A stretch of DNA of 64,000 nucleotides from Pedobacter polaris (GTDB lineage Bacteria; Bacteroidota; Bacteroidia; Sphingobacteriales; Sphingobacteriaceae). Positions 3,164-22,542 of this stretch are shown in pieces (the first letter of the stretch is position 1; the number at the start of each line of letters is the position of its first letter). Both the position numbers and the translations under genes were made by a program. Where the stretch lies: contig NZ_SWBR01000002.1 of NCBI RefSeq assembly GCF_005116505.1, positions 620,314 to 684,313 on the forward strand, in the 5' to 3' direction. Below the pieces are notes generated by a model. It worked only from the letters and a program-made list of their open reading frames with translations, had not been told where the DNA came from and did no database searches.

Positions 3164-3321
3164 AATCTTGATAAATTACTAAGGTGTAAATATAGCATCT
3201 TGAGACTTAGCGTTGAAGTTTTTGTGGATAAATTATTAAAATGTTAAGAGGTAAAAATTTATTAGATTTTTTGGAAATCAGTTTCATCACTTTTTTAAAA
3301 GTTAGTCCTGCTGTACATTAT

Positions 3322-3351
3322 AGCCCTCTCCGCCAAGGCGGATTCAGGGCT
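3322..3351. repeat. GC-rich dispersed hairpin
   Basis: Inverted repeat AGCCCT-CCGCC / GGCGG-AGGGCT in the 245-nt gap between the 2H phosphoesterase and mutS. It is markedly GC-richer than its surroundings. It shares the CCGCC..GGCGG core with sequence near 46730-46760, which suggests a dispersed intergenic element. It may end transcripts reaching it from the right, but no T-tract follows directly. Nothing else is visible in the gap. Confidence 0.55.
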
Positions 3352-3408
3352 GTCATTTCCATCAGGTTTAAAAAGCAAAGCTTGTAAAACTATTAATGGG
3401 TTGGGCAC

Positions 3409-17863: not shown

Positions 17864-18736
17864 TTACCCAAACAAATTGCTACTTAAATATCTATCTCCT
17901 CTATCGCAAGCAATAAAAACGATCAAACCGCTTTCTAGTTCTTCAGCTAGTTGTAAAGCACAATGCAAAGCACCACCACTACTCATTCCAGCAAAAACAC
18001 CTTCTTTTCTTGCTAAATTTCTTGAAGCTATAATTGCATCTTGCTGAGAAACATCCATAATTCTGTCTACACGTTCAGGCTCATAGATCCTTGGCAAATA
18101 CTCAATAGGCCATCTTCTAATACCAGGAATAGATGATTCTTCTGTTGGCTGACAACCCACAATTTGAATAGCTGAATTTTTCTCCTTTAAATACCTGGAG
18201 TTCCCCATAATACTACCTGTAGTACCCATACTACTCACAAAATGCGTAATCCCACCCTTAGTATCATTCCAAATTTCGGGTCCAGTAGTTTTATAATGTG
18301 CTAAATAATTATCTGGATTAGCAAATTGGTTCAATAAGAAATAACCGGGTTGTATCCCTTTCTCTTCTGCATAATCTCTACAAACCTCAATAGATTCAAG
18401 TAAAGTTACTTTAGCTCCGAAAGCTTCCATAGTTAAAGTGCGCTCTCTTGTAGAGCTTGCAGGCATTACCAATTCTATCTCAATTCCGTAAATAGAAGCA
18501 ATCATCGCCAATGCAATTCCCGTATTTCCACTGGTTGCCTCTATAAGTTTGGTGTTTTTATCAATTTCCCCTCTCTCCATCGCACTGCGTATCATATTCA
18601 AAGCTGCTCTATCTTTTACACTGCCACCAGGATTATTGCCTTCTAGCTTGGCGTAAATTTTAACATTAGGGTTTGAATTAAGATATCTGATTTCTGCCAA
18701 TGGTGTATTTCCAATGCAATCTATAATCGTCATCAT
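17864..18736 (-). CDS. cysM: Cysteine synthase CysM/CysK family
   Basis: 290 aa. O-acetylserine sulfhydrylase fold: PLP lysine Lys41 in GGSVKDRAALNM, the phosphate loop TSGNTGIALA (about 69-78), and the C-terminal SSGGALHCALQLAEE. It makes cysteine from O-acetylserine and sulfide. The length and GNTPLAEI N-terminus resemble the shorter CysM type. It overlaps the end of cysE by 4 nt, so translation is coupled and substrate passes directly from CysE. Two adjacent ATG codons leave the start uncertain by one residue. Confidence 0.9.
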   Translation of the reverse strand: MMTIIDCIGNTPLAEIRYLNSNPNVKIYAKLEGNNPGGSVKDRAALNMIRSAMERGEIDKNTKLIEATSGNTGIALAMIASIYGIEIELVMPASSTRERTLTMEAFGAKVTLLESIEVCRDYAEEKGIQPGYFLLNQFANPDNYLAHYKTTGPEIWNDTKGGITHFVSSMGTTGSIMGNSRYLKEKNSAIQIVGCQPTEESSIPGIRRWPIEYLPRIYEPERVDRIMDVSQQDAIIASRNLARKEGVFAGMSSGGALHCALQLAEELESGLIVFIACDRGDRYLSSNLFG

Positions 18737-19542
18737 GCTTTTTTAGTCTCCTTAATTTTAATTTCTGACTGGTGATAAACCGTTGAATTTTCTGGAACAC
18801 TAACCGTTAACCACACGTTTCCACCAATAATACTATGATCGCCAATAATAGTAGAACCACCTAAAATAGTTGCTCCAGAATAAATAATAACATGGTTACC
18901 TATTGTTGGATGCCTTTTGATATTTGACTTAGACTTATCGACACTTAAAGCACCTAAAGTTACACCCTGATAAAGTTTTACATGATCTCCAATTACGGTA
19001 GTTTCACCAATTACCAAACCTGTTCCATGATCGATGTACAAATATTCGCCTATGCTAGCCGCTGGATGGATGTCAATACCTGTAATGGTATGTGCATATT
19101 CTGTAATAATACGGGGAATGTGAGGCACTTCTAGCAAGTGTAATTCATGCGCAAAGCGATACATGGAAATGGCAAAAAAACCAGGATAGCACCTAATAAT
19201 TTCGAACTCACTTTGTGCTGCAGGATCCCCATCTACGAGAGATGTCAAATCCGTATTCAGCTTTCTATATATTTCAGGCAGCCTATTAAAAAAAGTATCT
19301 GAAATTTCTTTATAATGCGTTTTATTACATGCTTTAGTCGATTTCAAAATTAACTGAAGTTCTTCTTTAAGTTCAAAAAATACGCCTTTAAGTATCTCGT
19401 GATTGTAATTTGTTGAAGCTCCACGTTCTGGAAAAATCAGATCAAGTAAAGCCTGTGCCCAATTAGCAATCGTCTGATTTGAAGGTACTACTTGTTGCTG
19501 GTTTTGGCGATAGATAATACTATCTAAAAATTTTGAATCCAA
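18733..19542 (-). CDS. cysE: Serine O-acetyltransferase
   Basis: 269 aa. An N-terminal helical region (1-150) is followed by a left-handed beta-helix of hexapeptide repeats: GIDIHPAASIGEYLYIDHGTG, IGETTVIGDHVKLYQGVTLGA, then HPTIGNHVIIYSGATILGG. DIHPAASIG and DHGTGLVIGE carry the active-site His/Asp of the family. It acetylates serine using acetyl-CoA for cysteine synthesis. It leads the cysE-cysM unit. A TAACTTTG promoter box lies at 19567-19574 on the minus strand. Confidence 0.93.
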   Translation of the reverse strand: MDSKFLDSIIYRQNQQQVVPSNQTIANWAQALLDLIFPERGASTNYNHEILKGVFFELKEELQLILKSTKACNKTHYKEISDTFFNRLPEIYRKLNTDLTSLVDGDPAAQSEFEIIRCYPGFFAISMYRFAHELHLLEVPHIPRIITEYAHTITGIDIHPAASIGEYLYIDHGTGLVIGETTVIGDHVKLYQGVTLGALSVDKSKSNIKRHPTIGNHVIIYSGATILGGSTIIGDHSIIGGNVWLTVSVPENSTVYHQSEIKIKETKKA

Positions 19543-19686: not shown

Positions 19687-19718
19687 TTTGCATTAATTAT
19701 AATTTCACACTATATTTG
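19687..19718 (+). promoter_or_regulatory. Promoter of the metX leader transcript
   Basis: TTTG (19687-19690), 20 nt, then TATATTTG (19711-19718): the full two-box Bacteroidota consensus with ideal spacing. Transcription should begin near 19724, about 40 nt before the riboswitch. Confidence 0.8.
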
Positions 19719-19765
19719 AAACATTATTTGGAAGAACCAAGTAAAAATCAATTCCTTAGGTATTG

Positions 19766-19876
19766 ATTTATAAAGAAGTGGCGAGAGACAGGCTCTTAGA
19801 CCCACTGGCAACCCTCCCTAATGGAGAAGGTGCCAATTCCTGACCACTCAACATGGTGTTGATTGGAAATATAAAT
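19766..19876 (+). promoter_or_regulatory. SAM riboswitch (S-box, SAM-I type)
   Basis: Conserved S-box core: GGCAACC (19807-19813) and GGTGCCAATTCC (19829-19840). The four helices can be drawn: P1 ATTTATA/TATAAAT (19766-19772 with 19870-19876), P2 AGTGG/CCACT, P3 CTCC/GGAG, P4 TCAAC/GTTGA (19848-19852 with 19858-19862). SAM binding should stabilise P1. No terminator follows directly; instead a short ORF starts 8 nt after P1. It controls the downstream metX-hom genes of methionine synthesis. Confidence 0.9.
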
Positions 19877-19883
19877 TAAGAAG

Positions 19884-20021
19884 ATGAAAATATTAAATTC
19901 AATTTCGCTCATTAGCGACAATCTTAACTCAAAACTCAGCAGGTCGGTTTCACGCTTAAAAATGAATCTATTTTGTTGTAATACGCAGTCGATGAACTGT
20001 ATGTGCTATCGCATATACTAA
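19884..20021 (+). CDS. Cys/Met-rich leader peptide ORF
   Basis: 45 codons, ATG at 19884, TAA at 20019-20021. It starts 8 nt after the riboswitch P1 helix, preceded by AAGAAG. The first half is Ser/Leu/Asn-rich; residues 27-41 hold four Cys (31, 32, 39, 41) and three Met (27, 37, 40), as in CCNTQSMNCMC. Such clustering of the end products of the pathway is what a ribosome-stalling leader peptide would need. It is too short for standard gene calling and may be expressed only as a regulatory peptide. Conservation is untested here. Confidence 0.6.
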   Translation: MKILNSISLISDNLNSKLSRSVSRLKMNLFCCNTQSMNCMCYRIY

Positions 20022-20100
20022 TTCAAAAATCTTCCTTTTTGTACTTCAATCCGGAAGGTCCTGAAAAATCGGGATACGCTTGCAACTATCAGACTCCAAA

Positions 20101-20112
20101 CCCCTTAAGGGG
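20101..20112 (+). repeat. Palindrome before metX
   Basis: CCCCTTAAGGGG, a perfect 12-bp palindrome followed by ATTT, 26 nt before the metX start and 79 nt after the leader ORF. It could fold back on itself or pair with an upstream strand as part of an attenuator. There is no long T-tract, so it is not a standard terminator. Confidence 0.5.
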
Positions 20113-20138
20113 ATTTAAGCAATTTAGCATAAAAGAAC

Positions 20139-21236
20139 ATGTCAACTAATATAAATAGAGAAAATTCAAAGTCACTTTCTGGAGAGTTAGGGATTTATAA
20201 ACACCCAAAAATTTTTAAACTAGAGAATGGTAAGAAATTACGCAATCTTGAAATTGCTTACCAAACATTTGGTAAACTAAATGAAAAAAAAGACAATGTA
20301 ATTTGGGCTTGCCATGCACTTACTGCAAATGCTGATGTACTTGATTGGTGGAAGGGCTTATTTGGTAATAATGACTTATTTAACCCAGAAGAACATTTTA
20401 TCATTTGTGCAAATATTATAGGTTCAAATTACGGAACAACAAATCCATTGAGTGAAAATCCAGTTACTGGACAGCCTTATTATTTATCTTTCCCTGAATT
20501 CACAATCAGAGATTTAGCTACTGCTCACCAATTATTAGCTACACATTTAGCAATCAGTAATATTAAAGTTTTGATTGGCGGTTCTTTAGGTGGACAACAG
20601 GCTTTAGAATGGTCTTTGGCAAAAACGCAAACTATTGAAAATCTTATCCTAGTTGCCACAAACGCTGTTCATTCTCCTTGGGGAATTGCGTTTAATGAAA
20701 GCCAGCGTTTAGCAATTAGTGCAGACAGAACTTTCTATGCTAATAACCCTCAAGGTGGCTTAAAAGGTTTAAAAGTTGCACGGAGCATTGCTTTACTTTC
20801 TTACCGTACTTATCAGGCTTATGCTGATACACAAATAGAGAGTGTAAATGATAAAACAACGGGTTATAGAGCCTCATCTTATCAAAACTATCAGGGAGAA
20901 AAATTATGCAAACGCTTTAATGCTTATAGTTATTGGTATTTAAGCAAAGCGATGGATAGTCATAACGTTGGTCGTGGTAGAAAAAGCATCGTTGCAGCAT
21001 TGGCTGAAGTTAAAGCCAATACATTAGTAATTGGCATTGAAAATGACATTTTGTTCCCTATTAGCGAGCAAAAGTTTTTAGCAGAAAACATTACTAATGC
21101 ACAATTTAGTAGTATTAACTGTGCTTATGGCCATGATGGATTTCTAATTGAAACCGATAAATTAACAAACATTATTGGCAATTTCTTAAAAGATAGTGCG
21201 AATAAAAAAATCATAAAATTAAACAGAACAGCTTAA
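20139..21236 (+). CDS. metX: Homoserine O-acetyltransferase
   Basis: 365 aa, alpha/beta hydrolase fold. The nucleophile elbow is GGSLGGQQALEWS with Ser149; the acid and base lie in IENDILFPISEQ and AYGHDGFLIE near the C-terminus. WACHALTANAD and the NIIGSNYGTTNP loop are typical of MetX. It acetylates homoserine with acetyl-CoA, the first committed step to methionine. The long leader with SAM riboswitch and Cys/Met-rich ORF indicates feedback control. Homoserine dehydrogenase, which supplies its substrate, follows after 64 nt in the same direction. Confidence 0.95.
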   Translation: MSTNINRENSKSLSGELGIYKHPKIFKLENGKKLRNLEIAYQTFGKLNEKKDNVIWACHALTANADVLDWWKGLFGNNDLFNPEEHFIICANIIGSNYGTTNPLSENPVTGQPYYLSFPEFTIRDLATAHQLLATHLAISNIKVLIGGSLGGQQALEWSLAKTQTIENLILVATNAVHSPWGIAFNESQRLAISADRTFYANNPQGGLKGLKVARSIALLSYRTYQAYADTQIESVNDKTTGYRASSYQNYQGEKLCKRFNAYSYWYLSKAMDSHNVGRGRKSIVAALAEVKANTLVIGIENDILFPISEQKFLAENITNAQFSSINCAYGHDGFLIETDKLTNIIGNFLKDSANKKIIKLNRTA

Positions 21237-21300: not shown

Positions 21301-22542
21301 ATGAGCAAGAAACTTAAAATAGGATTATTTGGATTTGGAGTAGTAGGTCAAGGCTTACATGACATTATTCGTGGGCAAAACTTAAATTTAGAGGTAGTTA
21401 AAATTGCGATTAAAAACCCTGAAAAAAAACGCAGTTTAGATGCCCATCTTTTTACAACTTCACATGATGAGATTTTAAATGATCCAGAAATAAACACTAT
21501 AGTTGAATTAATTGACGATGCAGATGCGGCTTTTATAATTGTTAAAAAAGCTTTAACCAGTGGTAAAAATGTGGTATCAGCTAACAAAAAAATGATTGCT
21601 ATCCATTTAGAAGAACTAGTAAAATTACAGTTGGAAAATGGTACGTCATTATTGTATGAAGGTGCTGTTTGTGGTAGTATCCCGATTATTAGAAATTTAG
21701 AAGAATATTATGATAATGAACTTTTACATGGCATTAGTGGAATTTTTAATGGTTCATCAAACTATATTCTATCAAAAATATTCAATGAAGGCTTAGCCTA
21801 TTCAACAGCATTAAAACAAGCTCAAGATTTAGGTTTTGCAGAAACTGATCCTATTTTAGACGTTGGAGGCTATGACCCTAAATTTAAACTAACTATTGCT
21901 ACAGCACATGCTTATGGATTGTTTATTAATCCTGATCAAATATTAAACGTTGGTATTCAAAATATTTCAGATGCTGACATTCAATATGCTAAAGAGAAAA
22001 ACTTCAAAATCAAACTTGTACCAACTGCTCGAAAAATCAGCACAAAACAAGTAGTTACTTTTGTATTGCCAAAATTTGTTAAACCTGATGATTTTCTTTA
22101 CAACGTTGAAAATGAATACAATGGAGTAACTGTTCAAGCGGCATTTGCAGATAAACAATTCTTCTTCGGAAAAGGCGCAGGCGGCCACCCTACCGGTGCT
22201 GCAGTGCTTTCGGATATTGCTGCGCTTCGCTATGATTATCGTTATGAATATAAAAAATACAATCAAAATAATGGCTTAATTCATACCGATAAAGTAAGCA
22301 TTGAAGTTTATTTGCGCTATGTACATGAGTATACAGTAGAAAAGCTGCAAGTAGAAAATATTTCTGAACGTTTTTCTCGTAACGATTATAAATATGTGAT
22401 TGGTAGCATCAGTTTAAAAAGCTTAATTGCCAACCGAGATTTACTTTTAAATAAAGACGTATTTATTGCGCAGACTGGAAAGTTAACTTATAGTCAACAA
22501 GATATTGCAGCAATTGCCGAAGAGGCTGTATTGCTAAATTAA
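21301..22542 (+). CDS. Homoserine dehydrogenase
   Basis: 413 aa. NAD(P)-binding Rossmann motif GLFGFGVVGQG at residues 8-18, then the catalytic domain with ANKKMIA, YEGAVCGSIPIIRNL, GIFNGSSNYIL and GFAETDPILDVGGYDPKFKL. It reduces aspartate semialdehyde to homoserine. The C-terminal 80 residues after the catalytic domain could be a small regulatory (ACT-like) domain but I see no clear signature. It follows metX by 64 nt and probably shares its riboswitch-controlled transcript. A terminator lies at 22572-22604. Confidence 0.92.
   Translation: MSKKLKIGLFGFGVVGQGLHDIIRGQNLNLEVVKIAIKNPEKKRSLDAHLFTTSHDEILNDPEINTIVELIDDADAAFIIVKKALTSGKNVVSANKKMIAIHLEELVKLQLENGTSLLYEGAVCGSIPIIRNLEEYYDNELLHGISGIFNGSSNYILSKIFNEGLAYSTALKQAQDLGFAETDPILDVGGYDPKFKLTIATAHAYGLFINPDQILNVGIQNISDADIQYAKEKNFKIKLVPTARKISTKQVVTFVLPKFVKPDDFLYNVENEYNGVTVQAAFADKQFFFGKGAGGHPTGAAVLSDIAALRYDYRYEYKKYNQNNGLIHTDKVSIEVYLRYVHEYTVEKLQVENISERFSRNDYKYVIGSISLKSLIANRDLLLNKDVFIAQTGKLTYSQQDIAAIAEEAVLLN

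Follow-up and report, generated by a model that had tools for sequence, protein, structure and literature searches.

Our analysis suggests that the leader RNA of metX-hom in Pedobacter polaris, and of metY in most of its relatives, carries two sensors in series: a SAM-I riboswitch that would gate translation of a short leader ORF, and the leader ORF itself, which would read Cys/Met charging. We give this reading a probability of roughly 60%. The comparison of homologous leaders shows a conserved ORF with a Cys/Met-rich end, a restriction to sulfide- and sulfate-related genes, a lack of intrinsic terminators, an overlap of the riboswitch helix P1 with the predicted initiation region and a covarying hairpin (H3) behind the ORF.

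The leader ORF and its locus

The features of the locus are collected in Table 1, in coordinates of the window, that is, the whole stretch of 64,000 nucleotides that was analysed. The leader ORF translates as MKILNSISLISDNLNSKLSRSVSRLKMNLFCCNTQSMNCMCYRIY*. The sequence-only reading had described a 45-codon ORF beginning 8 nt after P1, with four Cys and three Met codons between codons 27 and 41 and metX-hom downstream; the ORF, its codons and the two genes were found as described, while the spacing from the last P1 base to the AUG is 6 nt, with the SAM-I end given by Rfam. Binding of SAM by the aptamer is predicted from its match to the Rfam sequence and structure model. The first regulated gene was assigned to metX with a TIGR01392 score of 330.9 bits, short of the 500-bit curated cut-off. 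Considering their spacing and common strand, metX and hom are presumed to form an operon.

Table 1. Features of the metX-hom leader region (positions in the window).
Feature	Position	Strand	Remarks
Probable Bacteroidota-type promoter	19687-19718	+	TTTG (19687-19690), 20 nt, TATATTTG (19711-19718)
SAM-I (S-box) riboswitch aptamer	19765-19877	+	Rfam RF00162, 76.5 bits (gathering 44.4); aptamer fold
P1 helix of SAM-I	19765-19772 with 19870-19877	+	solely A-U and G-U pairs
Leader translation initiation region (predicted)	19870-19883	+	P1 3' strand over -14 to -7 of the leader AUG
Leader ORF, 45 codons	19884-20021	+	Cys codons 31, 32, 39, 41; Met codons 27, 37, 40
Hairpin H1, over the last codons, within the Cys/Met codons	19999-20018	+	GUAUGUGC-UAUC-GCAUAUAC
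Hairpin H2	20031-20057	+	CUUCC ... GGAAG; 99.3% of cells paired in 28 sequences
Hairpin H3	20058-20075	+	GUCCUGA-AAAA-UCGGGAU; abuts H2, conserved UACGC follows
metX, homoserine O-acetyltransferase family, first regulated gene	20139-21236	+	TIGR01392, E 8.8e-99
hom, homoserine dehydrogenase, second gene of presumed operon	21301-22542	+	NF004976, 306.8 bits, above cut-off

In the window genome and a few relatives, metX is the gene behind riboswitch and leader, and metY comes first in most Pedobacter; a close metY is absent from the window genome, the best match having 36% identity over the N-terminal 100 residues. The predicted leader keeps company with the riboswitch even where the downstream gene changes. 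Upstream of the aptamer lies an element that we take to be a promoter from its fit to the general Bacteroidota consensus. Of the 131 homologous riboswitches, 105 have a TAnnTTTG at most 100 nt 5', usually between -58 and -66. The genes cysE and cysM are divergent and lie 5' of the riboswitch (17864-19542, minus strand), the intergenic region being common to genes of Cys and Met synthesis. Elsewhere in the window, a Flavo-1 RNA match on the minus strand (3300-3373) scored barely over the gathering score (45.0 vs 42).

Coding signal and spread of the leader

SAM-I leaders were gathered from genome contigs, GTDB genomes and whole-genome matches by their riboswitch sequence and not by the ORF. An ATG ORF was present close behind P1, mostly at 8-13 nt, in 130 of the 131 distinct leaders of the window subtype, the sole exception being L184, where metY lies directly 3' of P1. 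These ORFs are followed by metY, metX, cysH or an OsmC gene. For the window ORF, none of 20,000 dinucleotide shuffles reached the six Cys and Met codons of its last 16 codons, and only 7% of the shuffles stayed open. Across 117 non-redundant homologous leaders, the last 16 codons held 618 Cys and Met codons compared to 136 +/- 10 in shuffles, with Cys at 20.5% and Met at 12.6% (0.7% and 0.3% in the codons upstream), and the enrichment sits in frame 0. Substitutions favour synonymous sites, with a pN/pS of 0.60 for the whole ORF and 0.46 for the last 16 codons, values that are descriptive only, the sequence pairs counted not being independent.

These comparisons confirmed that the Cys/Met-rich ORF behind SAM-I is a real and general observation, in line with the conserved coding leader tied to the S-box that had been proposed from the window alone. 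The same proposal had named a lack of conservation, or of a coding pattern, in homologous S-box leaders as evidence against it; neither was found, and the richness persists in several families. The coding-type substitution pattern is nevertheless of moderate strength, and constraint on the RNA in part overlies it. A conserved short ORF that is rich, towards its end, in codons of the regulated amino acid characterizes a ribosome-mediated attenuator, and the leader has this form. Conservation of the ORF and of its Cys residues would also be expected if it encoded a functional small Cys-rich protein, for metal binding or redox, and not a regulatory leader, but this seems very improbable to us considering that it ranges in length between 19 and 52 codons, that the number and spacing of the Cys residues are variable, that Cys is replaced by Met or Arg in sister lineages, that three members searched gave no Pfam match and that the ORF always lies between the riboswitch and sulfur genes.

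We also considered that the ORF could be a passenger of RNA structure, TGTATGTGC...GCATACA and CGAATGCG being kept as a hairpin or switch with the Cys/Met codons as a by-product. In Pedobacter, the terminal TGT ATG TGC TGT TGC shows no synonymous variation, so that part of the conservation of these Cys codons reflects RNA structure, namely H1, which in the window has a stability of -9.5 kcal/mol (z -5.1) and in Pedobacter leaders is more stable than synonymous recodings (mean z -1.9). Similarly, CGAATGCGYTAG of Sphingobacterium is nearly invariant while the Cys codons vary. However, the leaders of the Mucilaginibacter-like group, of Chitinophagales and of other families are rich in Cys and Met although they use other codons and share no structure, and their last eight codons fold no better than recodings. 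Moreover, in the Pedobacter type, Cys codons 28-29 are either TGT or TGC, and the ATG of H1 is in frame in 62 of 62 leaders, as is the enrichment itself. A pure by-product is on this evidence improbable; for the last codons of Pedobacter, coding and RNA constraints overlap.

The richness is not uniform, as 16 of the 117 leaders have at most two Cys and Met codons among the last 16, mostly Sphingobacterium leaders ending in RMR; amino-acid sensing would therefore not be universal in the leader class. Some Sphingobacterium leaders have lost the Cys codons and kept the ORF and an RNA structure, and in the leaders ending in RMR perhaps the act of translation alone matters. Cys-free leaders of this genus (e.g. 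L165, L180, L182) retain the RMR end, a UAG stop and the TCGTY/RACGA helix described below; they may have lost amino-acid sensing and kept a translated switch.

Distant Bacteroidia families with unrelated leader sequences keep polyCys ends (...CCMCICCPCC, ...CCCMCCCC, ...STCCCCCC). Gene specificity was assessed in a class-wide control sample of Bacteroidia SAM-I riboswitches and Sphingobacteriaceae matches, taken irrespective of the ORF. A Cys/Met leader was found at 12 of 14 metY loci and at none of 119 other SAM-I loci (Fisher p 2e-15), a count slightly favourable by construction, as the 119 exclude metY loci as well as eight leader-bearing loci listed by hand (seven of the metY class, and L295 before a CarboxypepD-like gene), and which becomes 1/120 with L295 added back. 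A looser window on the same sample gave one spurious metH case. In this sample, the leader was missing before metH, metB/C-like, cysteine desulfurase, hom, peroxiredoxin and thioredoxin-like genes, and the 0/119 rules out that it is a trait of every SAM-I riboswitch. The predicted leader tracks sulfide-fixing or sulfate-reducing genes and not methyl transfer, which argues for Cys as the signal, Met being possible. The original proposal of Cys and Met as joint signals consequently holds mainly for Cys, also considering the polyCys ends of distant families, and is less certain for Met.

Several loci carry variants of this arrangement. An OsmC-like gene is preceded by SAM-I and a Cys-containing leader at L090, L139 and L143 (Sphingobacterium) and at L091 (a Chitinophagales MAG), and represents a second site of the riboswitch-leader module in Sphingobacterium. 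At L291 (G207:C1:2029300-2030423), SAM-I is followed by an intrinsic terminator, a polyCys leader (MKKTTTFPSKTTVANAFKFAAACCCCQKFAACCCKC) 112 nt 3' of P1, and cysH, the same principle in modular form. A 37-codon ORF ending in CCCCC, 101 nt 5' of a phytanoyl-CoA dioxygenase-like gene at L338 (Pedobacter, G015), has no visible SAM riboswitch pattern and is possibly a stand-alone Cys leader. A search of the window genome for Cys-rich codon runs gave 821 matches and was uninformative, and matches to polyCys followed by a stop in relatives were mostly non-leader.

P1, terminators and hairpins

A strict scan found an intrinsic terminator behind P1 at 41 of the 119 ordinary Bacteroidia SAM-I loci (0.95 in shuffles) and at none of 117 in the leader class. 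Between ORF and gene, terminators were found in 2 of 116 leaders vs 2.45 in shuffles, and in the window there was none on the plus strand between leader and gene, so that classical attenuation with an intrinsic terminator is not supported. The leader would thus act in an attenuator-like manner but not as the classical terminator type.

The 5' strand of P1 contains on average 0.15 G/C of 8 in the leader class vs 2.5 in other SAM-I, a contrast inflated for that set because the search pattern fixed part of this strand, so that a P1 made solely of A-U pairs could be an artefact of sampling. Among eight independently found leader loci, the strand had 0-1 G/C in seven and 4 in one. The enrichment of A at -3 and -12/-13 of the leader AUGs equals that of main genes; in Flavobacterium johnsoniae, A at these positions and low secondary structure promote initiation (PMC6847099). 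As the A-U-rich 3' strand of P1 in the window covers the positions given in Table 1, including A-12/A-13, the most economical interpretation is that SAM stabilises P1 and so probably blocks translation of the leader ORF. The two stacked controls proposed from the window alone stand insofar as a Cys/Met leader is joined to an S-box; because this riboswitch class is devoid of terminators and P1 overlaps the initiation region, the analysis suggests that the sensors are nested and not merely stacked.

Alternatively, the ORF could be a Cys (Met) attenuator stacked independently, with the riboswitch acting otherwise, for example by Rho entry or an unseen terminator, and no gating of the leader. The modular order of L291, with its terminator between SAM-I and the polyCys leader before cysH, speaks for this arrangement, and so does the stretch from stop codon to gene, where C is abundant and G scarce (C 0.21, G 0.12; 0.175 and 0.179 in the control stretch from riboswitch to gene). 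Rho entry sites tend to be C-rich and G-poor, and the stretch would fit Rho without proving it, composition by itself being weak evidence. Considering on the contrary the absence of terminators in the metY/metX class (0/117) and an AUG that adjoins P1 in every lineage seen, we regard independent stacking as rather unlikely and retain the series of a SAM gate and a Cys-reading leader.

In Pedobacter, H2 begins about 10 nt 3' of the leader stop codon and is nearly invariant among 28 sequences, hence its little covariation. In H3, five of the seven pairs change on both sides, with a covariation above that of all 500 shuffles (28 Pedobacter leaders). H1 and the Cys codons lie at an almost invariable distance from H2; a few leaders have extra end codons, and there the stop codon has shifted rather than this spacing. 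The H2-H3 motif occurs at most once per genome searched, ruling out a generic genomic element. Behind the ORF, the H2-H3 region gave no Rfam match, and no T-box was among the matches up to E 5 in 19700-20200. The covariation scan detected conserved hairpins but no conserved long-range pairing of the ORF with H2/H3 or of UACGC with the ORF, and no mutually exclusive alternative pairings. Sphingobacterium uses another design, in which ...CGAATGCGYTAG-TCGTY pairs with a downstream RACGA, C-G/T-A being concordant in 24 of 24, although this helix was spotted by direct inspection and counted afterwards, so was not chosen blind; for this genus, the RNAalifold structure from an unanchored alignment was poor. 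The structures 3' of the ORF thus appear conserved, covarying, lineage-specific and terminator-free.

Two sensors in series and their relation to known leaders

We infer from these features a translated ORF that is gated by SAM and in which ribosomes stall. When SAM is plentiful, the nearly all A-U P1 would be stabilised and the A-rich stretch needed to start the leader ORF would be covered; when SAM is low, the leader ORF would be translated. If charged tRNA-Cys is then short, ribosomes would slow down or stall at the terminal Cys (and Met) codons, and their position would decide the folding of the conserved hairpins at and behind the ORF and in this way the expression of the sulfur-incorporating gene. 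The output would presumably be Rho-dependent termination, mRNA stability or metX translation. More tentatively, the start of the leader ORF may be the sole output of this SAM-I class, giving a nested two-input gate in which low SAM permits reading of the leader and low charged tRNA-Cys sets the outcome, with a previously undescribed output structure, terminator-free and replaced lineage by lineage.

Both parts are of known kinds, and what appears new is their combination, especially a riboswitch gating a leader ORF. Cys-rich attenuation ORFs are indeed known in mycobacteria, as the sequence-only reading stated: polycysteine leaderless sORFs, predicted earlier (PMC1262725), are Cys-responsive and lie upstream of sulfur genes (Canestrari et al. 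2020, as described in PMC9031893). As far as that description goes, they share with our leader a short ORF, Cys codons near the stop, a position upstream of sulfur genes and no apparent intrinsic terminator, but they are leaderless, actinobacterial and without a riboswitch, whereas here a SAM-I aptamer touching the initiation region, and a probable promoter, lie 5' of the ORF. uORFC-8-2, the cysS leader of Rhodobacterales controlling cysteinyl-tRNA synthetase, is likewise a Cys-codon uORF inside a hairpin for which ribosome-mediated attenuation was proposed, although that motif has an intrinsic terminator at its end and lacks a riboswitch (PMC8632094).

The closest logic is that of tandem SAM-I/T-box(Met) leaders, NOT A AND B gates of which nine examples are described, metX and metY being named, and which couple SAM sensing to tRNA-charging sensing before homocysteine/methionine genes (PMC9481103). 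Their second sensor is a T box binding uncharged tRNA-Met (PMC9481103), whereas here it would be a translated Cys-codon-rich leader, in a phylum in which we saw no T box. Ordinary Bacteroidia SAM-I riboswitches, for example before metH, belong to the same RF00162 aptamer family but often have an intrinsic terminator and a G/C-containing P1, and no leader ORF. In the same phylum, leader-peptide attenuation was proposed for amino-acid operons of Flavobacterium psychrophilum, the available part of that report stating no combination with a riboswitch (PMC9723704). A literature search covering few subscription journals found no SAM riboswitch combined with a Cys leader peptide, Bacteroidota included.

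If our reading is true, Bacteroidota join the sensing of an end product (SAM) with that of a precursor and its charging (Cys) in one leader, at the genes where sulfide is split between Cys and homocysteine synthesis. It would be a case of a metabolite riboswitch steering a leader peptide rather than a gene, in a phylum without Shine-Dalgarno initiation. Moreover, more than 100 unannotated small ORFs and new output structures are predicted, which are testable in culturable Pedobacter and Sphingobacterium.
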